NCBI GenBank assembly: GCA_027311165.1
Contig: DAICZL010000202.1
Span: 1-32,383, forward strand
From: a bacterium
GTDB taxonomy: Bacteria; Pseudomonadota; Alphaproteobacteria; Acetobacterales; Acetobacteraceae
Reading direction: 5' to 3'
DNA: 32,383 nt
Made by a program: the position numbers and the translations under genes
Part shown: positions 3,184 through 26,207 of the stretch, piece after piece
Layout: every line of letters begins with the position of its first letter
Numbering within the stretch: the stretch's first letter is position 1
Notes under the pieces: model-generated
Told to the model about the DNA's origin: nothing
Seen by the model: only the letters and a program-made list of their open reading frames with translations
Databases searched by the model: none

Positions 3184-4497
3184 ATGGCGTTGACGAAAGA
3201 CGAGGTCGATTTCGCATTCAGGATGATTCTCGGCCGCCCGCCGGAGAGCGACGCGGCGATGGAGTTTCATCTGCATAAATTCCCCGATGTGGCCGCGTTG
3301 CGGAATCACCTTTTCAACACTGTCGAGTTCCGTCAGTCCTACTGGCATCGTCTGGCCGAGGGCGACGCCAGCTATGCCGGAAGGGAGATGCATTTCGCTC
3401 GCGAAAAGCTGGTGTTCCTGCATATTCCGAAGAATGCCGGCACCTCGCTCAACCGGATCCTGGAGACGCTCTGCCCGGAGACGGAGATATTTCCGCACCA
3501 ATCGCTGATCAGCCACTATCCGGCCTTCTTCATCGCTCGGCACTTTTTGTTCCGGGGTCACTACACGCTGCACGAGATCCAGTACATTCCGGGACCAAAA
3601 TGCATCTTCACCCTGTTGCGTGAGCCTCGCGCGCGCATCCTTTCACAATACCACTATCATAAATCGTCAAAGATCGGGGAAACGGCCATCAACGATCTGC
3701 CGATGGTGCACAAGGCGCGACTGCCGCTGCGGGAGTATCTTCTGGATGAGGAAGTGCGCCGGCACATCAGCGTCGACAACATGCAGACCCGCTATCTGTT
3801 TTATCTGTCGGCCGCGGCGGCTGGACGTTTCGGTGTCGTGGCCGATGACGCGACGTCGCCGTTCGACCGGCTGCCACGCCGCGCGGTGCTGGAGATCGCG
3901 AAGGAGAATCTCGCCGGTCTCGATTATGTCGGAACGGTCGAGGGGTTCGACCAGTTTCTGACGCTGTTCTGCGAGGAGCGGGGCATTCCGGTGCCGACCG
4001 ACATTCGCCGGCAGAACGTGACGCGGGAACTGGGCGAGGTCGATCCCAAGGCCCATAGCAAAGTGAGCTTCGAGCATCCCGACGAGGAGATCCATCACCT
4101 GCTCGACGACCTCGTGGACCTCGACGAAGAACTCTACCGATTCGGTGCCGGCCTGTTCAAGCAGCGCTATAACGAACATCGCGGCCTGCACGCCCAGTCC
4201 AAAGGCCTCTCGCTGCCGGCCCTGATGCAGACGGCTCCGGTCGAAGTGCGCCGGGCGCAGGCCGAACCGTCCACGCGGCCTTTGGCGCCAATGCGCAAGG
4301 CCGCAGCCAAAGGCCTGGCGGCCAAACCCGCTGCGGCGCCGGGGCACGACAAGATCGCGGCCAAGCCCAACAGGAACAAGCCCGGCAGCAAGAAGACCAT
4401 CACCGCCAAGGCCGAGCAGCCGTCCCGGCGCAGCACAGCGCCTGCCGGGCGGGCCAGCGGCGGGTCGCAGAAATCGATGGTCGAGCAGCGTCGCTAG
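3184..4497 (+). CDS. sulfotransferase-like protein, paralog 1, with long basic C-terminal tail
   Basis: A 437-residue protein, first of four tandem paralogs. Residues 1-55 form a small helical module (FAFRMILGRPPES ... LRNHLFNTVEFRQSYW) resembling the DUF4214-like ILGR module seen before glycan-modifying domains. Residues 75 to about 325 look like a Sulfotransfer_2-type domain: LVFLHIPKNAGTS at 76-88 fits the loop holding the 5'-phosphosulfate of PAPS, and LLREPRARILSQYHYH at 144-159 fits the 3'-phosphate-binding segment. The likely reaction is sulfate transfer from PAPS to a glycan or other surface acceptor, which cannot be identified here. Residues 330-437 are a Lys/Arg/Ala/Pro-rich tail absent from the other three. 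The start has GGAGAG at 3171-3176, seven bases upstream. Confidence 0.8.
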   Translation: MALTKDEVDFAFRMILGRPPESDAAMEFHLHKFPDVAALRNHLFNTVEFRQSYWHRLAEGDASYAGREMHFAREKLVFLHIPKNAGTSLNRILETLCPETEIFPHQSLISHYPAFFIARHFLFRGHYTLHEIQYIPGPKCIFTLLREPRARILSQYHYHKSSKIGETAINDLPMVHKARLPLREYLLDEEVRRHISVDNMQTRYLFYLSAAAAGRFGVVADDATSPFDRLPRRAVLEIAKENLAGLDYVGTVEGFDQFLTLFCEERGIPVPTDIRRQNVTRELGEVDPKAHSKVSFEHPDEEIHHLLDDLVDLDEELYRFGAGLFKQRYNEHRGLHAQSKGLSLPALMQTAPVEVRRAQAEPSTRPLAPMRKAAAKGLAAKPAAAPGHDKIAAKPNRNKPGSKKTITAKAEQPSRRSTAPAGRASGGSQKSMVEQRR

Positions 4498-4622
4498 GCA
4501 ACGTCGGTGTGTCAGGCGTGAGAGAGAAAGTAAGATGACGATGGCAGATCCGGCATCCGGGGCGGTCCCGGCACCTTGTCTGCTGAGGCATCGTGCCGGC
4601 CGACGGCGCGCGGAGTGAACAG

Positions 4623-5642
4623 ATGCCGCTGACCAAGGAAGACGTCGAGTACGGGTTCCGTATGATCCTCGGGCGGGCGCCGGAGAGCGAGGCGGCCGTG
4701 CAGTTTCACATGGAAAAATTTCCCGACATTCAGGCTCTGCGCAACCATCTGCTCAACTCCAAGGGCTTCCGCGACCAGTTCTGGCGGGGTATGGCGCAAA
4801 AGCGGGCCGATGCCTCGGCCAGCGAACTCGATTTCGCTACACGCAAGCTGGTGTTCCTGCACATCCCCAAGAATGCCGGCACTACGCTGACCCGCATCCT
4901 GGACAAGAATTTCAAGGTCCCGGAGATCTTCCCGCATATTTCGCTGATCGGCCATTATCCAGCCTCGTTCATCGCCAAGCACCGGCTGTTTCATGGCCAC
5001 TACACATTGAACGAAATCCAATATATTCCCGGCGAGAAATATGTGTTCACCCTGCTGCGCGAGCCACGTGCACGGATTCTGTCTCAATACCACTATCACA
5101 AATCGCTGAAGATCGACCCGTCGAATGACAAGCTGCCGATCGTGAGCAAGGCGCGTCTGCCACTGAAGGAATATCTGAGCGATCCTGAAGTGCGACAGCA
5201 CATCAGCCTCGACAACATGCAGACCCGCTACCTGATGTATATCTCTCCGGCGATCAGCCACCGTTTCGATATCCGCGCGACCGGCGCCGAGGATGTCTTC
5301 TCCAGCCTGCCGCGCCGCACCGCGATCGAAATCGCCAAGGAGAATCTCGAGAGTCTCGCCAATGTCGGGCTGGTCGAGGAATTCGACAAATTCCTGAAGC
5401 TGCTGCTGAGCGATCTCGATATTCCGGTGCCGGACAGCTACGAACGCCAGAACGTCACCACAACACTGGCCCGGGTCAGTCCCAAATCCCACGCCAAGGT
5501 GAACATAGAACAGCCCGATGAGGCAGCCCATGCGCTGATGGACGATCTGGTGAGCCTCGACGAAGAGCTTTATCGCTACGGCGCCAGCCTGTTCAACAAG
5601 CGCTTCCAGCGCTTCACCGCCCCGCAACAGGCTGCCGAATGA
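4623..5642 (+). CDS. sulfotransferase-like protein, paralog 2
   Basis: A 339-residue close paralog of the preceding protein. It has the same N-terminal ILGR module (GFRMILGRAPES), the same HIPKNAGTT loop at 80-88 and the same LLREPRARILSQYHYHK segment near 144-160; up to that point the two align without gaps. The conserved QTRYL, AIEIAKENLESL, RQNVT and LVSLDEELYRYG segments follow. It lacks the basic tail of paralog 1. The start at 4623 is preferred over an in-frame GTG at 4593 because GGAG at 4612-4615 sits seven bases before it and because the protein then aligns with its paralogs from residue 1. The gap from paralog 1 is 125 bp with no clear terminator, so cotranscription is likely. Confidence 0.82.
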   Translation: MPLTKEDVEYGFRMILGRAPESEAAVQFHMEKFPDIQALRNHLLNSKGFRDQFWRGMAQKRADASASELDFATRKLVFLHIPKNAGTTLTRILDKNFKVPEIFPHISLIGHYPASFIAKHRLFHGHYTLNEIQYIPGEKYVFTLLREPRARILSQYHYHKSLKIDPSNDKLPIVSKARLPLKEYLSDPEVRQHISLDNMQTRYLMYISPAISHRFDIRATGAEDVFSSLPRRTAIEIAKENLESLANVGLVEEFDKFLKLLLSDLDIPVPDSYERQNVTTTLARVSPKSHAKVNIEQPDEAAHALMDDLVSLDEELYRYGASLFNKRFQRFTAPQQAAE

Positions 5643-5673
5643 CCCAGCGCCGGTTTGAGGGAAAGGACTTCCC

Positions 5674-6696
5674 ATGAGCCTGACCCGCCAGGATGTGGAT
5701 TACGCCTATCGGCTGATCCTGGGCCGCGAGCCGGAGAGCGAGGAGAACATCCAGTTCCATCTGCAGAAATCCGGCAATCTGGCCGGGCTGCGGCGGCGGA
5801 TGCTCAATTCCAAGGCATTCCAGCGCTCGTATTGGGAGCTAATGGGCAAGCGCAAGCAGGATTCGGCGGAGGGGTGGCTCGACCTCGCCACCGAGAAACT
5901 CGTGTTCCTGCACATCCGCAAGAACGCCGGCACCACCATGGCCCGGCTGATCGACGCAGCCTTTCCGGCGTCCGAGATCTTCCCGCCGGACCAGAATGTC
6001 GAGAATTACGCCGCCGCCTATCTGGCGCAGCACCAGGTGTTTCGCGGCCATTTCACCCTGCACGACATTCAGATGATCCCCGGCAGCAAGCGCATTTTCA
6101 CATTGCTGCGCGCCCCGCGGGCACGGATCCTGTCGCATTATCGCTATCACCGGGCGCTCGGCCTGGGGCGGGGAGAGATCAAGGACAGCCTGGTCGCGAA
6201 GGCCCAGTTGCCACTGAAGGCCTATCTGCGCGATCCCTTCGTGCGCCAGCACGAATTCATCGACAACCACCAGACACGCTGCCTGTTTCACGTCTCCCCC
6301 CAGATCCGGGAGCGCTATGGCATCGACCGGCATGCGAGCGGCCGGCCGTTCGAGACGCTGTCGCGTGCCACGATCCTGGAAATCGCCAAGGACAATCTGC
6401 GCGGCCTCGACCATGTCGGCCTGGTGGAGGAATTCGATGCCTTCGCCCGGCTGCTGTTCCGCCAATGCGGCCTGCCGATGCCCGCGGAAACCAAGCCGCA
6501 GAACGTCTCGGCAGAACTCGCGCGATCGGCCACCGGTGCGCCGCCGCAGGCGGGATTCGAAGAACCGGACGCCGAAGTGCACGCATTGCTCGACGAGCTG
6601 GTGGCGCTCGATGATGAACTCTATCGGCTCGGCGCGGAGCTGTACCGGGCGCAGGCGGCGGCCACAGGGGAAGCCGCCCGCCATGCCGCGGAATGA
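5674..6696 (+). CDS. sulfotransferase-like protein, paralog 3
   Basis: A 340-residue third paralog. The N-terminal module reads DVDYAYRLILGREPESEEN, the clearest ILGR form of the four. The phosphosulfate loop is HIRKNAGTT (80-88), with Arg in place of the Pro of paralogs 1 and 2, and the 3'-phosphate segment is LLRAPRARILSHYRYH, keeping the Arg and Ser expected to contact PAPS. The C-terminal part (ILEIAKDNLRGLDHVGLVEEF, broken here: ILEIAKDNL then RGLDHVG; later LVALDDELYRLG) matches the others. GAAAGGA at 5661-5667 is six bases before the ATG. The intergenic gap is 31 bp. It is probably an active PAPS-dependent enzyme with an acceptor different from that of paralogs 1 and 2. Confidence 0.8.
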   Translation: MSLTRQDVDYAYRLILGREPESEENIQFHLQKSGNLAGLRRRMLNSKAFQRSYWELMGKRKQDSAEGWLDLATEKLVFLHIRKNAGTTMARLIDAAFPASEIFPPDQNVENYAAAYLAQHQVFRGHFTLHDIQMIPGSKRIFTLLRAPRARILSHYRYHRALGLGRGEIKDSLVAKAQLPLKAYLRDPFVRQHEFIDNHQTRCLFHVSPQIRERYGIDRHASGRPFETLSRATILEIAKDNLRGLDHVGLVEEFDAFARLLFRQCGLPMPAETKPQNVSAELARSATGAPPQAGFEEPDAEVHALLDELVALDDELYRLGAELYRAQAAATGEAARHAAE

Positions 6697-6714
6697 ATCC
6701 GACGGGACGATGAC

Positions 6715-7794
6715 ATGACTCTGAGCACGGCCGAGATCGAACTCGCTTATCGCGCCATACTGGGCCGGCCGCCCGAGAACGCCGCGGTGGTGGCGGCAGA
6801 CCAGCAGCGATTCACGGGGCTGGGAGGATTGCGGGCGCATCTGCTGCGCTCGAAAGCCTTCGAGACGGTCTACTGGACTCTGCGCGCCCGCGACCAGGAC
6901 GACTCCCGGCCGCCGCTGCAGGATTTCGCCGCCGAGCGGCTGGTTTTCCTGCACATCATGAAGGCCGCCGGCACCACGCTCAGCCGCCTGATCGAGAAGA
7001 ATTTCGACAAGATCGAGGTCGCGGGCTCATTCCGCGGCAATGATTTCGCCCGCACCCCGGGCAGTCTGCTGATGCCCTACCGGTTCTTCCACGGCCACTT
7101 CACCCTGCATGAGAGCCAGTTCATCCCGGGACCGAAGCGGGTCTTCACGGTCCTGCGGGCGCCGCGGGCGCGGATACTTTCCCTTTATCGCTTCCATCGG
7201 GCGCTGGCGACCACCGGCCAGCCAGACCGCCACCCGCTGGCGCACAAGGCGCTGCTGCCGCTGAAAGACTACCTGGCGGACCCGGCGGTGCGCGCCAACC
7301 GTTCATTCAACAATACCCAGACCTATACGCTGTTCGACCTCTCGCCCGAGATCATCCGGCAATTCGCGATCCGTCTGACCCCGCTGCAGGATCCGCTGAC
7401 GGTCTTGCCGGCCGATGTGATTGTGGAAGTGGCGAAGGAAAACCTGCGCCGGCTGCATGCATTCGGCGTGGTCGAACAATTCGACGATTTTCTGGAAATG
7501 CTGTTCGCCGCAAACGGATTGCACCTGCCCACGCAATACCGCCCACGCAACATCACCCAGCAGCTGGGCAAGAAAAGCGTGAAGCCCGATCCTGGCCCCG
7601 CCCCCGAACCACCGGACGCCGAGGTGGAGGCGCTGCTCGCTGGGCTGGTCAATCAGGACGAGGCGCTTTACGCCTTTGCCATCCAGGTTTACGCCGAGCG
7701 CCTGGCTCAATTCCGGGCCGAAGGCGGCGCCGCCTTGCGCACCCCCGAGCGTGTCCGCCAGCGCCTGGCCCAACGGCGCCACGCGGCGGAATAG
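6715..7794 (+). CDS. sulfotransferase-like protein, paralog 4 (most diverged)
   Basis: A 359-residue fourth paralog, 18 bp after the third. The N-terminal module is AYRAILGRPPENAAV. The phosphosulfate loop has drifted to HIMKAAGTT (80-88): the lysine and GTT are kept, but the Pro and Asn of paralogs 1 and 2 are lost. The 3'-phosphate segment is VLRAPRARILSLYRFH. The core NTQTY, VEVAKENLRRL, RPRNITQQLG and LVNQDEALYAF matches the others, and about 20 extra residues follow at the C-terminus. A GGGA at 6704-6707 precedes the ATG at 6715; a second ATG at 6710 is out of frame. Either the donor pocket tolerates the change or this copy has altered activity. Confidence 0.75.
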   Translation: MTLSTAEIELAYRAILGRPPENAAVVAADQQRFTGLGGLRAHLLRSKAFETVYWTLRARDQDDSRPPLQDFAAERLVFLHIMKAAGTTLSRLIEKNFDKIEVAGSFRGNDFARTPGSLLMPYRFFHGHFTLHESQFIPGPKRVFTVLRAPRARILSLYRFHRALATTGQPDRHPLAHKALLPLKDYLADPAVRANRSFNNTQTYTLFDLSPEIIRQFAIRLTPLQDPLTVLPADVIVEVAKENLRRLHAFGVVEQFDDFLEMLFAANGLHLPTQYRPRNITQQLGKKSVKPDPGPAPEPPDAEVEALLAGLVNQDEALYAFAIQVYAERLAQFRAEGGAALRTPERVRQRLAQRRHAAE

Positions 7795-13347: not shown

Positions 13348-14496
13348 ATGATCGAACCCTGGCGTGTCGGCGTTCTGTTCTCGCAAACCGGCGTCACCGC
13401 CGCGGTCGAGACCACCCAGTTGAACGCGACGCTGCTCGCGATCGACGAGATCAATGAAGCCGGCGGCGCGGCGGGGCGCCCGATCGAGCCGATCGTCTAC
13501 GACCCGGCCTCCACGCCGCGGAGATTCCGCACCCTTGCCGAACGGCTGCTGATCGAGGACCGGGTGCGGGTGATCTTCGGCTGCTACATGTCCAGCACGC
13601 GCAAGGCGGTATTGCCGGTGGTGGAAGCGGCGCGCGGGCTTCTGATGTATCCCACGCTGTATGAGGGGTTCGAATACTCACCCAACTGCATCTATACGGG
13701 TGCGGCTCCCAACCAGAATTCCCAACAGCTGGCACGCTATCTGTTCCGCCATCATGGCAACCGCGTGGTCTTCATCGGCTCCAACTATGTCTATCCCTAC
13801 GAATCCAACCGGATCATGGGGGATCTGGTGCGCCAGGCGAAGGGACAGGTGCTGGATGAGATGTATGTGCCACTCGACCCGCGGCCAGCGGATCTGGAGC
13901 GGGCCCTGAAGGCGGTGAGCCGGGCACGACCGGATGTGATCTTCTCGACCGTGGTCGGAAGCGGCACGGCGATGCTCTATGATGCCTATCACCGCGCTGG
14001 TTTCGATTCCAGCGCACTGCCGATCGCCAGCCTGACCACCAGCGAGGCCGAGGTGGCCGAGATGCGCCCGGAGGCGGCGGCGGGCCACATCACCGCCGCA
14101 CCGTTCTTTCAGACGCTGGACCAGCCCGCCGCCAGCCGTTTCGTCGCCGCGTATCAGCACCGGCACGGCCCCGCGGCGGCGGTGCCGGCGGCGGCGGAAG
14201 CGGCCTATTTCCAGGTGCATCTGGCGGCCGGCGCACTCGCCAGGGGCGGCGGGGAAGCGCCCGAACAACTGCGCGAGGGCCTGACTGGGCTGGAGTTCAA
14301 CGCCCCCCAGGGCCAGGTGCGAATCGAGCCGGCCAACAACCACACCCATCTCTGGCCCCGCGTCGCCAGGCTGGACCCGACGGGTCGGTTTCGCGTGGTG
14401 TGGACCGCGCCCGCCCGGGTGCGACCCGATCCCTACCGGGTGATGCAGGAACTCGATCCGGAGGCCGGACACTGGCCCGGCCGCGTGGAGGCCTGA
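13348..14496 (+). CDS. amiC: AmiC, amide-sensing regulator of the amidase system
   Basis: A 382-residue cytoplasmic periplasmic-binding-protein fold, close in length to Pseudomonas AmiC (385). It starts directly with VGVLFSQTG and has no signal peptide, unlike the transporter binding protein encoded downstream, to which it is clearly related (IFGCYMSSTRKAVLPVVE, LLMYPTLYEGFEYSPN, VFIGSNYVYPYESNRI, FNAPQGQVRIEPANNHTHLWPR broken here after FNAPQGQVRI). By the Pseudomonas model it binds AmiR when no short-chain amide is present and releases it when acetamide binds. It is followed after 7 bp by amiR, which fixes the assignment. No clear Shine-Dalgarno precedes the ATG at 13348. Confidence 0.92.
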   Translation: MIEPWRVGVLFSQTGVTAAVETTQLNATLLAIDEINEAGGAAGRPIEPIVYDPASTPRRFRTLAERLLIEDRVRVIFGCYMSSTRKAVLPVVEAARGLLMYPTLYEGFEYSPNCIYTGAAPNQNSQQLARYLFRHHGNRVVFIGSNYVYPYESNRIMGDLVRQAKGQVLDEMYVPLDPRPADLERALKAVSRARPDVIFSTVVGSGTAMLYDAYHRAGFDSSALPIASLTTSEAEVAEMRPEAAAGHITAAPFFQTLDQPAASRFVAAYQHRHGPAAAVPAAAEAAYFQVHLAAGALARGGGEAPEQLREGLTGLEFNAPQGQVRIEPANNHTHLWPRVARLDPTGRFRVVWTAPARVRPDPYRVMQELDPEAGHWPGRVEA

Positions 14497-14503
14497 ACCG
14501 GCG

Positions 14504-15112
14504 ATGGGCTTCGAGATCCTGCGCGACCTGCGTGACCTCCACGTTCAGGTGATCCACGCGCCGGACGCCGAGGGGCTGGGCCTGGTCGAGCATGTGCAGC
14601 GGATCGGCTGCACCGTAGAGGCGGCCTGGCCGATCCCAGACGGGCTCGCCGTGACCGCCGATCTGGTGCTGCTGGCGATCGACCATGACAGCCGCGACCG
14701 GCTGCGCCGCCTGCTGCGCGCCGCCGACCGGATACCGCCGACACTGATCGCAATCGTCGGCTATGAGAACCCCTCGATCCTGCAGCTGGTGCTGGAAGCC
14801 GGCGCCCATGCCGTGGTCGAGCGCCCGATCCGCCCCTTCGGCCTGCTGACCCAGATGACCCTGGCCCGCGCGCTGTGGCTGGAGCAGCAGGAGACCCGCC
14901 GGCGCGTGCTGAAGCTGGAACGCAAGCTGTCGGGGCTGCACAAGATCCAGCGGGCCAAGGCGATACTGATGGACACCCACGGCATGACCGAGGATCAGGC
15001 CTATCAGGCGATACGCCGCCAGGCGATGACCAAGCGGATGGGGATGGAGGAGCTCGCCTCGGCGATCGTCAGCGCCAACGACCTCTTGAACTCGGCCCGC
15101 CGAAGCGGCTAA
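14504..15112 (+). CDS. amiR: AmiR, ANTAR-domain transcription antiterminator
   Basis: A 202-residue RNA-binding antiterminator (Pseudomonas AmiR is 196). Residues 1-130 form a receiver-like fold without the phosphorylation site pattern (LVLLAIDHDS, PPTLIAIVGYENPS, GAHAVVERPIRPFGLL). A coiled-coil helix follows (RRRVLKLERKLSGLHKIQ), then the ANTAR three-helix domain (RAKAILMDTHGMTEDQAYQAIRR broken here after RAKAILMDTHGM; MTKRMGMEELASAIV). ANTAR proteins bind paired hairpins with six-base loops and prevent terminator formation. Two such leaders are visible here, before urtA and before amiE. Its start is 7 bp after the amiC stop, with GGAGG at 14487-14491 inside the amiC end. Confidence 0.93.
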   Translation: MGFEILRDLRDLHVQVIHAPDAEGLGLVEHVQRIGCTVEAAWPIPDGLAVTADLVLLAIDHDSRDRLRRLLRAADRIPPTLIAIVGYENPSILQLVLEAGAHAVVERPIRPFGLLTQMTLARALWLEQQETRRRVLKLERKLSGLHKIQRAKAILMDTHGMTEDQAYQAIRRQAMTKRMGMEELASAIVSANDLLNSARRSG

Positions 15113-15346: not shown

Positions 15347-16603
15347 ATGAACACCACCCGCCGCAGTATCCTGAAAGCCAGCGCGCTCTCCGCCGCTGGC
15401 ACGCTCGCCTCGCCGTATTTCTTCCACCGCACTGCGCAGGCCGCCGATGTCATCAAGGTCGGCGTGCTGTTCTCGCAGACAGGCGGATTGTCGATCATCG
15501 AGAAATCGCTGGCCGACGCGACGCTGATGGCGATCAGCGAGATCAACGCCACCGGCGGGGTGCTGGGCAAGCAGATCCAGCCGATCGTGGAGGACGGCGC
15601 ATCCGATCCCAAGACCTTCAACGAGAAGGCCTCGAAGCTGGTCATCCAGGATAAGGTGCCGACGGTCTTCGCCTGCTACACCTCGGCCAGTCGCAAGGCG
15701 GTGCTGCCGGTGTTCGAACGCCGTGCCAACCTGCTGTTCTACCCGACGTATTACGAAGGCTTCGAGTGCTCGAAGAACGTGGTCTACACGGGCGCGGTAC
15801 CGAACCAGCAGCTTTCCAACTTCATTCCCTGGATCATTAAGACCCTGGGCAAGAAGAAGTTCTTCATCGTCGGCTCCAACTACATCTATCCGCGCGAGAT
15901 GGCCAAGGTCTGCAAGGTTCTGATCGAGCAGAATGGCGGGCAATGGGTGGCCGACGAGTACCTGGAACTGGGCGACTCCGAATGGGGCTCGATGGTCAAC
16001 AAGATCAAGTCCTCGGGCTGCGACGTAGTGCTGTCGAACGTGGTCGGTGACAGCGTCGTCGCGTTCTACCGCGAGTTCAAGAACCAGGGCCTGAGCCACG
16101 CCAAGCTGCCGATCTGCGCAACCGTCACCTCCGAGATCGAGATCGCCGCGATGGGGCCGGAATACGCAGTGGGCAGCTTCACGTCCTTTCCCTATTTCAT
16201 GGCGATCGACACCGATGCCAACAAGCAGTTCGTCGAGCGCTACCGGGCCTTCGTGAAGAACCCCAAGGCGGTGACCCATCATGCCCTGGAGAGCTCGTAT
16301 TTCCAGGTGTTCCTCTGGAAGCAGGCGGTCGCCAAGGCCGGCGAGGCGATGCCGATCCCGATCCGCAACGCGGTGATGGGCCAGGAATTCAACGCCCCGA
16401 ACGGGCATGTGAAGATCGAACCGGCCAACCTGCACACCTGGCTCACTCCGCGCATCGCCGAGTGGCAGGCCGATGGCCAGGGCAAGATCATCGACACCTA
16501 TCCGGCACCGATCATGCCGCTGCCCTATGTCGCCTATGGCGAGACCGAGAAGAACCTGTTCTGCACGGGCAAGGGTCTGGATACCGCCAAGCTGAAGGGC
16601 TGA
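15347..16603 (+). CDS. urtA: amide/urea ABC transporter substrate-binding protein (UrtA/FmdD type)
   Basis: A 418-residue type I periplasmic binding protein. The N-terminus carries a twin-arginine signal (TTRRSILKASALSAAG), cleaved probably near AQAA about residue 33. The mature protein resembles AmiC throughout (VGVLFSQTGGLS, FACYTSASRKAVLPVFE, FYPTYYEGFECSKN, FIVGSNYIYPREM, EFNAPNGHVKIEPANLH). UrtA binds urea and FmdD short-chain amides; sequence alone does not separate them, but the adjacency to amiCR and a shared AmiR-type leader favours amides. GGAG at 15331-15334 is 12 bases before the ATG, rather far. A strong hairpin follows before urtB. Confidence 0.92.
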   Translation: MNTTRRSILKASALSAAGTLASPYFFHRTAQAADVIKVGVLFSQTGGLSIIEKSLADATLMAISEINATGGVLGKQIQPIVEDGASDPKTFNEKASKLVIQDKVPTVFACYTSASRKAVLPVFERRANLLFYPTYYEGFECSKNVVYTGAVPNQQLSNFIPWIIKTLGKKKFFIVGSNYIYPREMAKVCKVLIEQNGGQWVADEYLELGDSEWGSMVNKIKSSGCDVVLSNVVGDSVVAFYREFKNQGLSHAKLPICATVTSEIEIAAMGPEYAVGSFTSFPYFMAIDTDANKQFVERYRAFVKNPKAVTHHALESSYFQVFLWKQAVAKAGEAMPIPIRNAVMGQEFNAPNGHVKIEPANLHTWLTPRIAEWQADGQGKIIDTYPAPIMPLPYVAYGETEKNLFCTGKGLDTAKLKG

Positions 16604-16613
16604 ACCGCCGACC

Positions 16614-16640
16614 GGCCGCCGCATGGGCGATGCGGCGGCC
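16614..16640 (+). other. intercistronic hairpin between urtA and urtB
   Basis: GGCCGCCGCAT (16614-16624) and ATGCGGCGGCC (16630-16640) form a perfect 11-bp stem with loop GGGCG. It starts about 10 bases after the urtA stop. Without a T-run it should not terminate; it is placed to stabilise the urtA part of the message, so that the binding protein is made in excess over the membrane subunits. Confidence 0.7.
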
Positions 16641-16666
16641 CCTTCCCCCCTGTCTCGCGGGTGCGC

Positions 16667-17560
16667 ATGGCCGAAATCATCTTTATCGGGCTCAGCCTCA
16701 GCTCCATCCTGCTGCTCGTGGCCCTGGGCCTCGCCATCACCTATGGCGCCATGGGTGTGATCAACATGGCGCATGGCGAACTGGTGATGGCCGGTGCCTA
16801 CGTCACGGTGCTGTCGGGCATCTGGCTGCACCTGAACATCATCGCCGCGATCCCGCTCGCCTTCCTGGTCACGGCCCTGATCGGCTATCTGATCGAGCGC
16901 CTGGTGGTCCGACGCCTCTATGGCCGGCTGCTGGATACACTGCTCGCCACCTGGGGTGTCGCCATCCTGATCCAGCAGGCAGTGCGGCTGGAATTCGGTC
17001 TCTCGTTCTTCGGCCGGCATATCGCGGGTCTGGGCGTAGGCTTGCAGAACGTCACCGTGCCGGAGGCGCTGACCGGCGCAATCACGATCGGCGGCGTGCA
17101 GGTCAATGCCTTTCGCGCCTTCATCATCGGCGTGACCGTGGTGCTGACGTTCGCTACCTGGCTGCTGATGTATCGAAGCTCCTTCGGCGTGCAGGTCCGC
17201 GCGATCATGCGCAATCCGAACATGGCCGCTGCCTGCGGCATCAACGTTCAGCGGGTCAATGCGCTCACCTTCGCCTATGGCTCGGGACTCGCCGGGGTGG
17301 CCGGCGTGATGATGTCCGGCTTCAAGACGGTGTTTCCCGATATGGGCACGCCGATGGTGGTGGACGGGTTCCTGGTGGTCGCCGCCGGCGGGGTTGGCAG
17401 CCTGCTCGGAACCATCCTGTCGGCCGGATTGCTGGGCCAGATCAATGGCATCGTGGCCTCGGTCACCAACGACATCCTGGCGCGCGCGATGGTCTTCGCG
17501 GTGGTGATCCTGATCATCGTGCTGAAACCGCGCGGCCTGTTCTCCTACCGGGGGCGCTGA
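16667..17560 (+). CDS. urtB: amide/urea ABC transporter permease UrtB
   Basis: A 297-residue inner-membrane permease of the branched-chain amino acid (LivH) type, with about eight hydrophobic segments (IFIGLSLSSILLLVALGLA, ending the first helix region; VFAVVILIIVLKPRGLF at the end). The family motif YGAMGVINMAHGELVMAGAY is present near residue 26, and the ATPase-contact loop is VRAIMRNPNMAAACGINV. The C-terminal LKPRGLFSYRGR is usual. The ATG at 16667 is taken rather than a GTG at 16661; neither has a strong ribosome binding site. It is separated from urtC by 3 bp. Confidence 0.93.
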   Translation: MAEIIFIGLSLSSILLLVALGLAITYGAMGVINMAHGELVMAGAYVTVLSGIWLHLNIIAAIPLAFLVTALIGYLIERLVVRRLYGRLLDTLLATWGVAILIQQAVRLEFGLSFFGRHIAGLGVGLQNVTVPEALTGAITIGGVQVNAFRAFIIGVTVVLTFATWLLMYRSSFGVQVRAIMRNPNMAAACGINVQRVNALTFAYGSGLAGVAGVMMSGFKTVFPDMGTPMVVDGFLVVAAGGVGSLLGTILSAGLLGQINGIVASVTNDILARAMVFAVVILIIVLKPRGLFSYRGR

Positions 17561-17563
17561 GCG

Positions 17564-18703
17564 ATGGATGCGAAACGCCGCCTGGACTACGCCACCTATG
17601 CCGTATTCATCGCCCTGATCATGTGCGCGCCGCTGGTGCTGGAGGAATTCTGGCTGAACCGCATCGCCAAGTTCCTGGTCTATGGCATGCTGGGTGTGGC
17701 GGCCTCGCTGTGCTGGGGCTATGCCGGCATCCTCAATCTGGGTCAGGGGCTGTTCTTCGGCCTCGGTGCCTACATGATGGCGATGTCGCTGAAGCTCGCC
17801 AGCCCCACCAGCCTGCAGCAGGGCTCCGACAAACCGGTGCCGGATTTCATGCTGTGGAATGCCGAGCCGGGGGCCCCCACCGATCTGTGCTGCATCAACC
17901 GGGGCTCCTTCCTGTGGCTGCCGTTCCAGCACCAGTGGTTCGGCGTGATGATGGGCCTGCTCGTGCCGGTGGTGGTGGCGGCGGGCCTGGGCTGGGTGAT
18001 GTTCCGCAAGCGCATCGCCGGAGTGTTCGTCTCGATCATCACCCTGGCGCTGGTGCTGCTGGTGCGGCTGGTGCTGATCGACGCCCAGCCGTTGACCAAC
18101 GGCTTCAACGGGCTGACCGATCTCGGCTACCTCACGATCGGCGGATTCGAATTCGACCCGTATTCCGCGGCGACCTACTATCTGGTCGCCTCCGCACTTT
18201 CCCTGTCGCTGATCCTGGCGCGGATGTTGGTGGAAACCCGCGCCGGACTGATCCTGCAGGCGATCCGCGACGACCAGAACCGGGTGCGCTATCTGGGCTT
18301 CGACGTGCCGGTCTATCAGATTTTCTTCTTCGCGGTCTCCGCGGCGATCGGCGGGATCGCCGGCATCCTGTATGTGGTGGTGGCGGATTTCGCCTCGCCG
18401 ACCTTCCTCGACCTGACCTTCTCGATCACCATGGTGATCTGGGCCGCGGTCGGCGGACGCGGGTCGCTGCTCGGGGCCTGCATCGGCGCCATCCTGATCA
18501 ACACGATCGAAGCCCGCGTCAGCGAGACCGAGGGCTTCCTGCAGGCCTGGCGGGCCATCATCGGCCTTATCTTCGTGCTGGTGGTGCTGTTCCTGCCGCG
18601 CGGCCTCGCCGGCCTCGCGAACGATGCCGGAGAGTGGCTGACCGGACGGCTGGGCGGCGGGCGCCGCCGCGCCACCGCGCCCCGCGTGGCGAGCAGCGAG
18701 TGA
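17564..18703 (+). CDS. urtC: amide/urea ABC transporter permease UrtC
   Basis: A 379-residue LivM-type permease and partner of UrtB. It has many membrane segments, the motif GYAGILNLGQGLFFGLGAYMM (broken as GYAGILNLGQG and LFFGLGAYMM) near residue 47, and an ATPase-contact loop at AIRDDQNRVRYLGFDV. A longer soluble insert (about residues 85-125, including PGAPTDLCCINRGSF) is usual in UrtC. The C-terminus is a basic tail. The stop overlaps the ribosome binding site of urtD. Confidence 0.93.
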   Translation: MDAKRRLDYATYAVFIALIMCAPLVLEEFWLNRIAKFLVYGMLGVAASLCWGYAGILNLGQGLFFGLGAYMMAMSLKLASPTSLQQGSDKPVPDFMLWNAEPGAPTDLCCINRGSFLWLPFQHQWFGVMMGLLVPVVVAAGLGWVMFRKRIAGVFVSIITLALVLLVRLVLIDAQPLTNGFNGLTDLGYLTIGGFEFDPYSAATYYLVASALSLSLILARMLVETRAGLILQAIRDDQNRVRYLGFDVPVYQIFFFAVSAAIGGIAGILYVVVADFASPTFLDLTFSITMVIWAAVGGRGSLLGACIGAILINTIEARVSETEGFLQAWRAIIGLIFVLVVLFLPRGLAGLANDAGEWLTGRLGGGRRRATAPRVASSE

Positions 18704-18716
18704 AGGAGGACGATCG

Positions 18717-19463
18717 ATGCCAGCAGCCCTGACCATCGACGGTATCGGCGTCGATTTCTCCGGCGTGAAGGCGGTCGATGGCGTCTCGATGGTGATCGAG
18801 GAGGGCGAGCTGCGGGTGCTGCTCGGCGCCAACGGTGCCGGCAAGACCACGCTGATGGACCTGATTTCCGGCAAGACCAAGAGCACCCAGGGCCAGGTGT
18901 TCCTCTACGATACCGAGATCACCAACTGGGAAGAGCCGGCGATCGCGCGCGCGGGCCTCGGACGGAAATTCCAGATCCCCAGCGTCTTCAAGGAGCTGAC
19001 CGTCCGGCGCAACCTCGAAGTGGCGAGCTGCCACAATCCCCGGGTGTTCGCCAATCTGGGCTTCGGCCTGCCGCGCGCGGCACGCAGGCGGCTCGATGAG
19101 GTGCTGGCACTGACCGGGCTCACCGCGCAGGCCGAGACGATCGCCGGCACGCTCAGCCACGGCGAGACGCAATGGCTCGAACTCGGCCTGCTGATCGTGC
19201 AGAACCCGCGCGTGCTGCTGCTGGATGAGCCGACCGCGGGCATGACCGCCGCGGAAACCCACCGCACCGCCGAAATCATCAAGGATCTGCGCGGCAGCCA
19301 CACGATTCTGGTGGTGGAGCATGACATGGCCTTCGTGCGCGAAATCGCCGAACGGATCACCGTGATGCATCTCGGACAGGTCCTGGCCGAGGGCGACATC
19401 GCAAGCATCGAATCGGATGCGCGGGTGCGGGCCGCCTATCTCGGCAGCCGGGGGATCGGCTGA
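18717..19463 (+). CDS. urtD: amide/urea ABC transporter ATPase UrtD
   Basis: A 248-residue ABC ATPase. Walker A GANGAGKT at 37-44; signature LSHGETQWLELG, the SHG-xxQWLE form that marks UrtD rather than LivG; Walker B VLLLDEPTAGM; switch His in VVEHDM. It works with UrtE to energise transport. AGGAGG at 18704-18709, seven bases before the ATG, is the best ribosome binding site of the operon. Its stop codon overlaps the urtE start (TGATG). Confidence 0.95.
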   Translation: MPAALTIDGIGVDFSGVKAVDGVSMVIEEGELRVLLGANGAGKTTLMDLISGKTKSTQGQVFLYDTEITNWEEPAIARAGLGRKFQIPSVFKELTVRRNLEVASCHNPRVFANLGFGLPRAARRRLDEVLALTGLTAQAETIAGTLSHGETQWLELGLLIVQNPRVLLLDEPTAGMTAAETHRTAEIIKDLRGSHTILVVEHDMAFVREIAERITVMHLGQVLAEGDIASIESDARVRAAYLGSRGIG

Positions 19464-20158
19464 TGCTGGCACTGCGCGCAGTCGATGGATTCTACGGCCG
19501 CAGCCATATCCTGCACGGTGTCACGCTGGATGTGCCGGCCGGGGCCATTACCGCCATACTGGGCCGCAATGGCGTGGGCAAGACCTCGCTGCTGCGCGCC
19601 CTGATGGGGCTGATGCTGCTGCTGGAGGGCGCCATCCTGCTCGATGGCCGCGACATCGCCGCCGAGCCCGCGTATCGTCGCGCCCGGGCTGGCATTGCCT
19701 ATGTGCCCCAGGGCCGCGAGATCATTCCGGACTTCTCGGTCCGCGAGAACATCCTGATGGGCTCCTTCGCTCGGTCCGACGGCAGGCGGGTGATCCCCGA
19801 CCTGGTGGGTGAACTGTTCCCCTATCTCGTGCAGAACCTGGAACGCCCGGGCGGGGTGCTGTCGGGCGGCCAGCAGCAACAACTGGCGATCGCCCGCGCT
19901 CTGGCCGCCGATCCGAAGCTGCTGCTGCTGGACGAGCCGACCGAGGGCATCCAGCCCAGTATCGTCGAGGAGATCGAGACCATCATCGTGCGGCTGAACC
20001 GCGAGGCGGGCCTCACCATCCTGCTGGTCGAGCAGAATGTCTTCTTTGCCCGCCAGGCGGCGCAGCATTTCGCGATGATGGAGAAGGGCCGCGTGGTGGC
20101 CGCCAGTGCCATCGCCGAGCTGACCGATGCGCTGGTGCATCGCCATATGGCGGTGTGA
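19463..20158 (+). CDS. urtE: amide/urea ABC transporter ATPase UrtE
   Basis: A 231-residue LivF-type ABC ATPase and second nucleotide-binding subunit. Walker A GRNGVGKT at 34-41; signature LSGGQQQQLAIARAL with the extra glutamines typical of UrtE; Walker B LLLLDEPTEGIQPS; switch His replaced by Gln in LVEQNVFFARQ, as in most LivF/UrtE proteins. It is translationally coupled to urtD. No terminator follows it directly; the Ni/Co permease gene begins about 220 bp downstream and has its own promoter candidate. Confidence 0.95.
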   Translation: MLALRAVDGFYGRSHILHGVTLDVPAGAITAILGRNGVGKTSLLRALMGLMLLLEGAILLDGRDIAAEPAYRRARAGIAYVPQGREIIPDFSVRENILMGSFARSDGRRVIPDLVGELFPYLVQNLERPGGVLSGGQQQQLAIARALAADPKLLLLDEPTEGIQPSIVEEIETIIVRLNREAGLTILLVEQNVFFARQAAQHFAMMEKGRVVAASAIAELTDALVHRHMAV

Positions 20159-21580: not shown

Positions 21581-23932
21581 TCAGCGCCGGGCGAGCCTGA
21601 AATAGAGCTCCGCCAGCCGCGCCGGCAGATCATCGAGGCGCGTCACCTTCATGCAGTTGCCGGCCCCGAACATCGCCGCCCCCGCACCGGTGCCGCAGGG
21701 ATCGAGCGTCACCCCGAACACATCGATGCCACGCGCCTTCAATTGCCGGCTCACGCGGCGCGTGTCCTCCACCAGATCGAGCGGATCGGCCACATCGATG
21801 TCGGACGCCTCGCCATCGGTCAGCACCAGGATCAGCCGGCGATGGGTGCGCGCCGCGGCAAGCTCCGCTCCGGCATGACGCAGCGCCGCCCCCAGCCTGG
21901 TCGAAAGCCCGGGCTGCAAACCCGCCCGCCGCGCCTTCGCCGGCGCGCCCCAGGGCTCGGAGAACTCCTTCAGCCGGAACAGCCGCACATCGTCACGCCC
22001 GCAGGACGCGAAGGCGCGCAGCGCCAGCGGGTCTCCGGTCGGCGCGGTCGCCTCGGCCAGCAGCGCCACCGCCTGGCGCTGCACATCCAACACTGTGACC
22101 GGCGGTCCCGCGCCGTATCCGGCGACCCGCTCGCCGGTCGATTGGGAACAGTCGAGCAGGATCGACACCGACAGATCGCGCGCCAGCCGCACCGTGTCAC
22201 GATGGATGCGTTCGTCCGGTGGTTCGCCGCGCCGCATGGCGATCGCGGCCTCCAGCAGTGCATCCAGATCGAGATCGGGACCATCGATCTGCCGGCGCAG
22301 CCTGGCCGGCAGGCCGAGCCTGGCACCGCGCACCAGCCGGGCGATCCGCTGGCGCAGATCGGGACGCGCAGCGAGCAATGCATCGATCCGCGCGGCATCG
22401 CCCAGAGGGGGCGGCACGTCGCGCAGCGTGGTCCAGGCCGGACGCTCCACATTGCCGGCGCGGTCCCATTCCGGATAGGTGGCGACCACCACACCCCGCC
22501 CGTCGGATGCAGCCTCCCGCGCCCGTCCACCGGCAAGCGGATCGCGTTCCGGCTCGCCACGCGGCGGTGCCTCGCCAGCCTGGGGCTGCGGGCGCATCGC
22601 GTCCACCACCACCTCGATCTGATCGGCACGCTCAGCTGGGGGGTCGGTGAAATCCCACAGGCCCAGACCGTCATCGCGATAGGCTGGTTCCACGACATAG
22701 GTGCGGGCATTGAACTGCAGCCGCTGCTGGCCGAGATCGTTACCCAGAAGATTGCCGACACGCCGGCTCATCGCAGGGTCGTCCAGCCGGCCCGCATGCT
22801 CGGCGAACAAGGCCCGGCCCTTCACCACGAACGCATCGGTATCGACATAAGTCGGATCGAACAGCGCGCGGGCCAGACGCGCGAGCAGCCCGGGCGCGGT
22901 CGCGGCACCGGTGGCGGCGGCGGTGTGGAACGGCGCCCACAGCCGGCGCAGTCCAGGAAAGCGCGCCATCGCCAGCGCCTCGATACGGGCATCCTCGATC
23001 AGGCCCACCAGAGCCAGCTGCAGCGGCTTCAGCTGGCCGACCGGGAAGCGCCCGGCACCCAGCGCCACATGCGCGCTGGCATGGGCCGCTGCCGCGCGAA
23101 ACAGCAGCCGTGCGGTCTCCGGCGAGACGCCTCGATAGACCTCGGGCATCAGAACGATCCGTCCGGCAAGGCTGGTCCTTCGCGGCCAGCCACCCGGGCC
23201 GACGCCACCACTTCCCGGCATCCCATGCGGCGCAATCCGCAGCGCTGGCGGGTTGGCCCACAGCGCGGTCAGGAACAGTTTCAGACCGCGCTCGACATGC
23301 TGGAAATCGACCGTCTCGCCCAATCGGGCGAGCATCCGCCGCGCCGCCTCGTCCTCCAGCCCAAAGAATGCCAAACGACGGGCGCGGTCGGTTCCGCCGA
23401 GCTTCAGCCCGGCGGAGAGAAAGGATTGCCACCCGCCCAGCCCGGCAGGTTCCAAGATCGCCGCGACGTTGCTGGCCACCAGGGCGACGCTTTCCGGCGC
23501 CGTCTGCGCCAGGTGATGCAGACTGCGCCACCACTGCAGCATTTCGCCGGCCCCGTGCAGACGCGCGGCGACGGTCGGGCAGGCATTCAGCCCGGCCTGA
23601 GCGGCGCGCGACCCTGCGCGGCGGCACAGTTCCGCCGCCGCACGGACCACATCCCCCAGCGCTACCAACCCCAGACGCGGCTGCAGCGTCACGCTGATCT
23701 GCCAGGCAGCGACCAGGCAGCCAGGCCCGGCATTGACATTGGCAAGGTCCAGAATACCGCTGGCCCAGGCTTCCAGATCGGCGGGATCGGCCCCCGAGGC
23801 GATGTGCTGCCATGCCGGCTGGAAGGCGCTGCGCAACGCCGGCCGGGCGCCTGCCAGTTGATGCAGCCTGGCCACCGCCTGCTCCCGGTCGGTCACCAGC
23901 ACTTCCAGCCGGGGCCGTCGGGCCGGACTCAT
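21581..23932 (-). CDS. VWA-domain protein of the CbbO/NorD type
   Basis: A 783-residue protein. The N-terminal 550 residues are helical without enzymatic motifs. The C-terminal 200 residues are a von Willebrand A domain with a complete MIDAS metal site: DCSQS at 594-598, the Thr in LSTRLGAALRHAG, and the Asp in LVLTDGEASD. CbbO and NorD pair with CbbQ/NorQ ATPases as remodelling factors: CbbQO reactivates Rubisco and NorQD is needed for nitric oxide reductase. Here the partner ATPase lies 90 bp upstream and the first gene is an amidase, so amidase activation or assembly is the simplest inference. An in-frame stop shortly upstream of 23932 fixes the start region. It ends close to, and converges on, the Ni/Co permease gene (49 bp). 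Confidence 0.85.
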   Translation of the reverse strand: MSPARRPRLEVLVTDREQAVARLHQLAGARPALRSAFQPAWQHIASGADPADLEAWASGILDLANVNAGPGCLVAAWQISVTLQPRLGLVALGDVVRAAAELCRRAGSRAAQAGLNACPTVAARLHGAGEMLQWWRSLHHLAQTAPESVALVASNVAAILEPAGLGGWQSFLSAGLKLGGTDRARRLAFFGLEDEAARRMLARLGETVDFQHVERGLKLFLTALWANPPALRIAPHGMPGSGGVGPGGWPRRTSLAGRIVLMPEVYRGVSPETARLLFRAAAAHASAHVALGAGRFPVGQLKPLQLALVGLIEDARIEALAMARFPGLRRLWAPFHTAAATGAATAPGLLARLARALFDPTYVDTDAFVVKGRALFAEHAGRLDDPAMSRRVGNLLGNDLGQQRLQFNARTYVVEPAYRDDGLGLWDFTDPPAERADQIEVVVDAMRPQPQAGEAPPRGEPERDPLAGGRAREAASDGRGVVVATYPEWDRAGNVERPAWTTLRDVPPPLGDAARIDALLAARPDLRQRIARLVRGARLGLPARLRRQIDGPDLDLDALLEAAIAMRRGEPPDERIHRDTVRLARDLSVSILLDCSQSTGERVAGYGAGPPVTVLDVQRQAVALLAEATAPTGDPLALRAFASCGRDDVRLFRLKEFSEPWGAPAKARRAGLQPGLSTRLGAALRHAGAELAAARTHRRLILVLTDGEASDIDVADPLDLVEDTRRVSRQLKARGIDVFGVTLDPCGTGAGAAMFGAGNCMKVTRLDDLPARLAELYFRLARR

Positions 23933-24022: not shown

Positions 24023-24820
24023 TCAGACACAGGCAGCGATGGCGGCCGTCAGGGCCTCGCGCATTTCGGCATCGTCGGTGATCGGCAGCACGATGCTGGC
24101 ACGCGCCGCCTGCTCCAGCCCGACACCGGCACCGACCAGCCGTGCCGCGTGGATCAGCATGCGCGTGGAGGCGCCCTCGTTCAGACCCGCTCCGCGCAGA
24201 TTGCGGGACCGGCCCGCAATATCGACAAGCGTCTCTGCCAGCCCTGCCTCGGTGCCGGCCTCCCGCATCACGATTTCGGCCTCGATCTCCGGTTCCGGAT
24301 AGGTGAAATCGATCGCGATGAAGCGCTGCTTGGTGGATTCCTTCAGATCCTTGACCGCACTTTGATAGCCGGGATTGTAGGAGATCACCAACTGGAAGTC
24401 CGGATGGGCCGCAAGCAATTCGTTGCGCTTTTCCAGCGGCAGCATGCGCCGCCCGTCGGTCAGCGGATGGATCACCACCGTGGTGTCCTGCCGCGCTTCG
24501 ACGATCTCGTCGAGATAGCAGATCGCCCCCCCGCGTACTGCGAGTGTGAGCGGGCCGTCATGCCAGACCGTGCCGTCCTGCGAAAGCAGATATCGGCCGG
24601 CCAGATCCGCTGCGGTCATGTCCTCATGCGCAGCCACCGTGATCAGCGGGCGGCCGAGCTTCCAGGCCATGTGCTCGACGAAGCGCGTCTTGCCGCAGCC
24701 GGTGGGGCCTTTCAGCATGACCGGCAGCCGGTCACGATAGGCGGCCTCGAAGATCGACACCTCATTACCGACGGGACGGTAGTACGGCTCCGCGGCGATA
24801 CGAAAAGGAGACAGGTTCAT
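24023..24820 (-). CDS. AAA+ ATPase of the MoxR group, CbbQ/NorQ type (AmiB position)
   Basis: A 265-residue MoxR-group AAA+ ATPase close in length to CbbQ and NorQ. Walker A GPTGCGKT at 38-45; Walker B AICYLDEI with Asp104-Glu105; the CbbQ/NorQ segments [46 protein letters not shown] and the C-terminal [14 protein letters not shown] are all clear. It probably remodels a client protein together with the downstream VWA protein. In Pseudomonas the gene following amiE is amiB, which also encodes an ATPase, so this is the positional counterpart. No strong ribosome binding site is seen before the ATG. It follows amiE after about 150 bp that contain a strong hairpin. Confidence 0.9.
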
Positions 24821-24968: not shown

Positions 24969-26006
24969 CTACCGGTGTGCCGTCTTCTTGTTCGGGATCC
25001 CCTCTATCGGGCATTCCTCGGTACCCACGGTCGGCCGCGTCAGCGCCTCGACCATCTCGCGGGTGCCCTCGGGATCGGTGATCCACTTCTTGTAGAAATC
25101 ATAGGGGCACGCAGCCAGGCCGCCCACTTCGTCGCCGGAGTTGATCGTTCCGGTGTAGCCGCGATGCAGCAGCTTGAACAGATGGTTCTCGGACTGCATC
25201 GTCCGCCGCGCATCGCGGATCAGGCTGACCGAGAGTTGCGCATACTGGATGCCGTAATCCTCCTCGCCGCATTCGCCGAGCGTGCGCCCATCGAACCCCA
25301 CGATCGCGGAATGGCCGAAATACGAATACACCCCGTCGAAGCCCGAAGCATTGGCGACCGCGACATAGACATTGTTGGCCCAGGCCATCGCCTTGGCCAT
25401 CATCACCTGCTGGTCCTTGGCCGGATACATGTAGCCCTGGCAGCGCACGATCAACTCGGCGCCCTTCATGGCGCAATCCCGCCAGATCTCGGGGTAGTTG
25501 CCGTCATCACAGATGATCAGGCTGATCTTCAGACCCTTGGGTCCTTCGGAGACGTAGGTGCAATTGCCAGGATACCAGCCCTCGATCGGCACCCAAGGCA
25601 TGATCTTGCGATATTTCTGAACGACTTCCCCCTTGTCGTTCATCAGGATCAACGTGTTGTACGGCGCCTTCTTCGGATGCTCCTCGTGGCGTTCACCGGT
25701 CAGCGAGAACACACCCCAGACCTTGGCCTTGCGGCAGGCCTCGGCGAAGATCTCGGTCTCCTCGCCAGGAACGGTCGAAGCCGTCTCGTACATCTCCTTG
25801 CTGTCGTACATGATGCCGTGAGTGGAATATTCCGGAAAAACCACCAAGTCCATCCCCGGGAGCCCCATCTTCATCCCGGTGACCATGTCGGCGATTTTCT
25901 GCGCGTTGGCCAGCACCTACGCCTTGGTGTGCAGCCGTGGCATCTTGTAGTTCACCACGGCCACGCCGACCGTGTCCTTACTGCTGGAAATGTCGCCATG
26001 TAGCAT
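24969..26006 (-). pseudogene. amiE: aliphatic amidase, interrupted by an amber codon at codon 30
   Basis: Read through the stop, this is a 345-residue protein nearly collinear with Pseudomonas AmiE (346), which hydrolyses short aliphatic amides to acids and ammonia. The start MLHGDISSS has AGGGAG seven bases upstream. Codon 30, where the Pseudomonas protein has Glu (MPRLHTAAEVL), is TAG at 25917-25919. Downstream all nitrilase-fold catalytic residues remain: Glu in VFPEYS, Lys in KYRKIMPW, Cys in [10 protein letters not shown]. There are no frameshifts, so the lesion is recent, a sequencing error, or suppressed in vivo. A GTG directly follows the stop and could allow a truncated 315-residue product. 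The leader has an intrinsic terminator with ANTAR-like hairpins. It heads a minus-strand operon with the CbbQ- and CbbO-like genes. Confidence 0.9.
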
Positions 26007-26053: not shown

Positions 26054-26165
26054 GGGGTCCTGCATGAACCGCCCGTCCGCCGGGCGCCTCGGACTTATCG
26101 GCCGGCGTTCCGGGGCCGAACGGCCTACGCCGCCACGCCATCCCGGATCAGTCGCGCCGCACCAC

Positions 26166-26207
26166 AAAAAAACCCCGCACGACCGTCAGGTGACGGGCGA
26201 TACGGGG
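26166..26207 (-). terminator. intrinsic terminator in the amiE leader
   Basis: Read on the minus strand: CCCCG (26207-26203), an inner stem CCGTC/GACGG around ACCT, then CGGGG (26177-26173) and seven T (26172-26166). It lies about 160 bases upstream of the amiE start and in the middle of the leader, so it works as an attenuator to be relieved by AmiR. Confidence 0.85.

Follow-up and report, generated by a model that had tools for sequence, protein, structure and literature searches.

An in-frame TAG at codon 30 of amiE in a draft alphaproteobacterial genome most likely has no biological meaning for the gene

Does an in-frame stop codon at a conserved position of an otherwise complete aliphatic amidase gene mark a recently broken gene, a codon that the cell tolerates, or an error in the sequence itself? 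This question is raised by a TAG in amiE in the window, the 32,383-nucleotide stretch of DNA analysed here, which is one contig (C511) of a draft genome comprising 819 contigs and estimated to be 87% complete. The gene and the codons concerned are the following:

24969-26006, minus strand: aliphatic amidase gene amiE, 345 codons, with a break at codon 30
25919-25917, minus strand: in-frame TAG, codon 30 of amiE, flanked by GCG and GTG
25914-25916, minus strand: GTG, codon 31, a possible restart; CCAAGGCGTAG before it holds a weak AAGG Shine-Dalgarno-like run

The frame starts with ATG at 26006 and ends with a natural TAG at 24971-24969, and in the given consensus it is interrupted by the TAG at codon 30. 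In a tblastn comparison, the read-through AmiE was collinear from residue 1 to residue 345, with exactly one stop inside the frame. It scored 721.6 bits against the aliphatic amidase equivalog NF009802 (cut-off 427), its best PDB match was the aliphatic amidase 2plq, and it shares 86-91% identity with its relatives. The catalytic Glu59, Lys134 and Cys166 are all kept, together with the second glutamate, Glu142 (AmiE numbering). An earlier note on this DNA had described a TAG between GCG and GTG in an otherwise intact amiE, with a collinear frame on either side and all catalytic residues in place, and the analysis confirmed each of these points. It had also correctly stated that one base change from GAG suffices to give TAG, but it placed the change at 25918, whereas the single base differing from GAG is 25919 (A on the plus strand).

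Codon 30 had further been taken for a conserved glutamate, which holds: among 84 homologues from about 80 genomes (window excluded), 82 carry Glu, encoded by GAG in 71 and by GAA in 11. The two exceptions are one Gln (CAG) and one Asp, the latter belonging to a distant paralogue in the same genome. Comparison with related genomes of the same family or class as that of the window revealed a sense codon in all three in which a close amiE was found. Judging by this alignment, Glu is very likely the ancestral residue, although not certainly so, since the homologue with CAG is also one step from TAG. A leave-one-out conservation test on 84 sequences, the window counted in, detected no decay in amiE beyond codon 30. 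At columns conserved in at least 97% of the sequences, the window AmiE differs in two places, the stop and I128V, and 20 of the 84 sequences show as many deviations or more. Either the stop arose very recently or it is not real.

The stop could be tolerated if GTG-31, the next codon, served as a new start for an enzyme of 315 residues. The GTG follows the TAG immediately, AAGG lies a few bases upstream, and the 315 residues after the stop still score as an aliphatic amidase (654.6 bits against the same NF009802 cut-off of 427). The AAGG-bearing CCAAGGCGTAG also encodes conserved residues. Against a restart, its product would be devoid of residues 1-30, which we take to include the core strand with which the nitrilase fold begins; the Pfam match of the remainder begins at profile position 16 rather than 2, and the N-terminal part is present in all 80 relatives. 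The restart proposed in the note would thus cost the enzyme the first strand of its fold, and we consider it very improbable.

Analysis of the gene environment bears on whether the amide pathway as a whole has decayed. The neighbouring genes are:

24023-24820, minus strand: AmiB/NorQ/CbbQ-type AAA ATPase, downstream of amiE (Pfam AAA_5, CbbQ_C)
21581-23932, minus strand: NorD/CbbO-like VWA-domain protein (Pfam VWA, weak; a neighbour in related loci)
13348-14496, plus strand: AmiC-like amide-binding regulator (Pfam Peripla_BP_5), UrtA-like, no signal peptide seen
14504-15112, plus strand: AmiR antiterminator with AmiR_N and ANTAR (Pfam)
15347-20158, plus strand: urtABCDE-type ABC transporter for short-chain amides or urea, five genes, all open (NCBIfam)

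The surrounding amide uptake and regulation genes, which the note had called complete, do look intact. A nickel/cobalt permease gene is also found on the plus strand of the same contig. In related loci, norQ directly follows amiE in 38 of 86 cases, and urtABCDE-amiE-norQ-norD is a frequent order. In Pseudomonas aeruginosa, AmiC and AmiR govern amiE through antitermination (PMC3369936, PMC5259723). Here, a G+C-rich inverted repeat at 26160-26200 of the window (minus strand), some 160 bases ahead of the amiE start and accompanied by seven consecutive T, gives a stable fold upstream of the gene. This element is a possible AmiR-controlled terminator in the amiE leader; no Rfam match was found in the leader. 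Two UrtA-like proteins are encoded in the window, one beside AmiR and without an apparent signal peptide (13348-14496), the other an exported transporter subunit (15347-16603), which suggests that the AmiC-like regulator and the Urt transporter subunit share an origin. Elsewhere in the window (3184-7794), four tandem paralogous genes have similar N-termini (LT..DV.YA.R.ILGR.PES) and carry a sulfotransferase-like FLHI.KNAGTT motif.

A single stop in a gene showing no other decay, surrounded by intact pathway genes, is what would be expected if amiE had recently suffered a real nonsense mutation of its own, independent of any other stop, by which the strain lost its acetamide pathway. The draft genome itself bears on this reading, as 575 kb of it yielded six more in-frame stops within conserved genes:

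ABC ATPase 1: GAA>TAA, in the context YQ-E-LALAPN
ABC ATPase 2, DppF-like: TCG>TAG, in place of the Walker A serine
ABC ATPase 3: GAG>TAG, at the Glu preceding IVGLIGDNGAGKS
sufB (contig C569, position 5860): TAG replacing a conserved GAG (Glu)
Aminotransferase: GAA>TAA, at a position that is Glu in PDB 2x5d
Substrate-binding protein: TAG, excluded from the set with an inferred ancestor

The ABC ATPases came from a domain search of the draft, in which 3 of 101 such domains carry one internal stop each. The sufB stop was found by comparing the draft with 1.6 Mb of a complete relative (G139), and the last two genes by a reference-free scan of the 575 kb. Besides C569:5860 in sufB, four sites grouped with the amiE stop lie at C690:1453, C500:790, C713:1515 and C256:6984. 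Outside these six, a BPD_transp_1 permease domain at positions 2311-2832 of contig C13 is reported with one internal TAG.

Several stops of this kind could indicate that this organism suppresses UAG or has recoded it as sense, and they do mostly replace Glu codons in otherwise intact genes. However, one of them replaces Ser and two are TAA, and TAG is an ordinary terminator in the window, ending 4 of its 21 genes, amiE among them. No tRNA with a CUA anticodon (amber suppressor) was found among the 32 tRNA genes of the 87% complete genome, and there was no sign of a loss of RF1, which is intact in the draft. Suppression, which the note had listed among its options, is therefore unlikely, and together with recoding we give it next to no credence.

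The type of substitution was examined in the cases where an ancestor can be inferred. All six, amiE included, are G:C>T:A transversions (GAG>TAG, GAA>TAA or TCG>TAG). By the codon usage of this genome, 44% of one-step nonsense changes would be G:C>T:A under a uniform spectrum, so that six out of six has P = 0.007. If GC>AT transitions are favoured fivefold, the share falls to 21% and P to about 1e-4. Without amiE, the corresponding values are 0.016 (uniform) and 4e-4 (transition bias). Since the same substitution class recurs in unrelated genes of the same draft, the event is not specific to amiE. The causes listed in the note did include a sequencing error, but its picture of an event confined to amiE found no support, with at least six other in-frame stops in 575 kb. 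For a lone mutation in amiE, the shared class of the other resolvable stops would have to be a coincidence, and we regard this reading as improbable.

A real process could also produce such a spectrum. Defective 8-oxoguanine repair in a mutY-type mutator lineage would have generated recent GAG>TAG and GAA>TAA mutations in several genes, amiE being a fresh null allele. The spectrum agrees with that of an Elizabethkingia outbreak strain with a disrupted mutY, where such transversions made up 45 of the 49 nonsense mutations (PMC5458099). In the draft, mutY is truncated by the end of a contig (C153:10234-10554), no other contig was found to carry its N-terminal half, and four of the genes hit serve transport and look dispensable. 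However, with 819 contigs, a contig break in mutY is no evidence of inactivation, and mutM is intact in the draft. A directional missense test, lacking power and confounded by the GC difference, gave no excess of G>T. The only copy of sufB found in the draft carries its stop mid-gene. SufB is usually essential, as is SUF in organisms that rely on it as their principal iron-sulphur system, so that a real mutation there should be near lethal. The mutator reading is possible, yet we consider it unlikely on the whole. In a bolder version, this environmental alphaproteobacterium would be a natural mutY-type mutator in which GAG>TAG and GAA>TAA changes amass in metabolic genes, even sufB, and in which readthrough makes some of these changes tolerable; we deem this quite improbable.

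The frequency of internal stops was also compared with a control, combining 1.6 Mb from the complete relative with 0.96 Mb from 80 other loci, scanned in the same way. By our reading, the hits of the control scan were nearly all gene junctions or antisense shadows, leaving perhaps one to three true interruptions in 2.56 Mb. In the draft, three internal stops were counted in 516 kb, a rate that leaves out the window and three contigs chosen for their stops (P about 0.016-0.063). The excess over the control is marginal.

The presence of the stop in the only sufB copy favours an error over a real mutation. With slightly better than even confidence, we therefore read the TAG of amiE as an error of the consensus, arising in sequencing or assembly, among scattered G:C>T:A changes of a fragmentary draft. 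Oxidative damage at library preparation or sequencing would yield 8-oxoguanine, with G read as T, and the misread G would enter the consensus of thinly covered contigs. Both the status of the stops as errors, rather than as mutations of the organism, and the thin coverage are inferred. Under a consensus error, the real amiE of the organism would be an ordinary intact aliphatic amidase gene, induced through AmiC/AmiR, with its product supplied by the Urt-like transporter. The stop most likely has no biological meaning for amiE, and reading it as gene loss or suppression would wrongly imply that acetamide use has been lost or that UAG has been recoded. It is advisable to consider the in-frame GAG>TAG and GAA>TAA stops of this draft jointly, and to check them against the reads and mutY, before calling any of its genes pseudogenes.

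Three known systems can be compared with this locus. C>A/G>T changes are a published signature of oxidative sequencing artefacts (PMC6337315, with Costello 2013 cited there), and such artefacts resemble the present changes in substitution class and scattered positions. They have been described among low-frequency variants of deeply sequenced samples, whereas here they would have to reach the consensus through low coverage. The Elizabethkingia anophelis Wisconsin outbreak (PMC5458099) resembles this draft in that GAA>TAA and GAG>TAG predominate among its nonsense mutations; it comprises many isolates with mutY disrupted by an ICE, in contrast to a single draft with mutY cut by a contig end. Finally, AmiE of the Pseudomonas/Geobacillus type (EC 3.5.1.4; NF009802) is matched over its whole length and in its catalytic residues, and the system also in its AmiC/AmiR regulation genes and a nearby AmiB-type ATPase. 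The present locus differs from it in the TAG at codon 30 and in its regulators, which lie on the opposite strand, far from amiE, with the Urt-type transporter in between.
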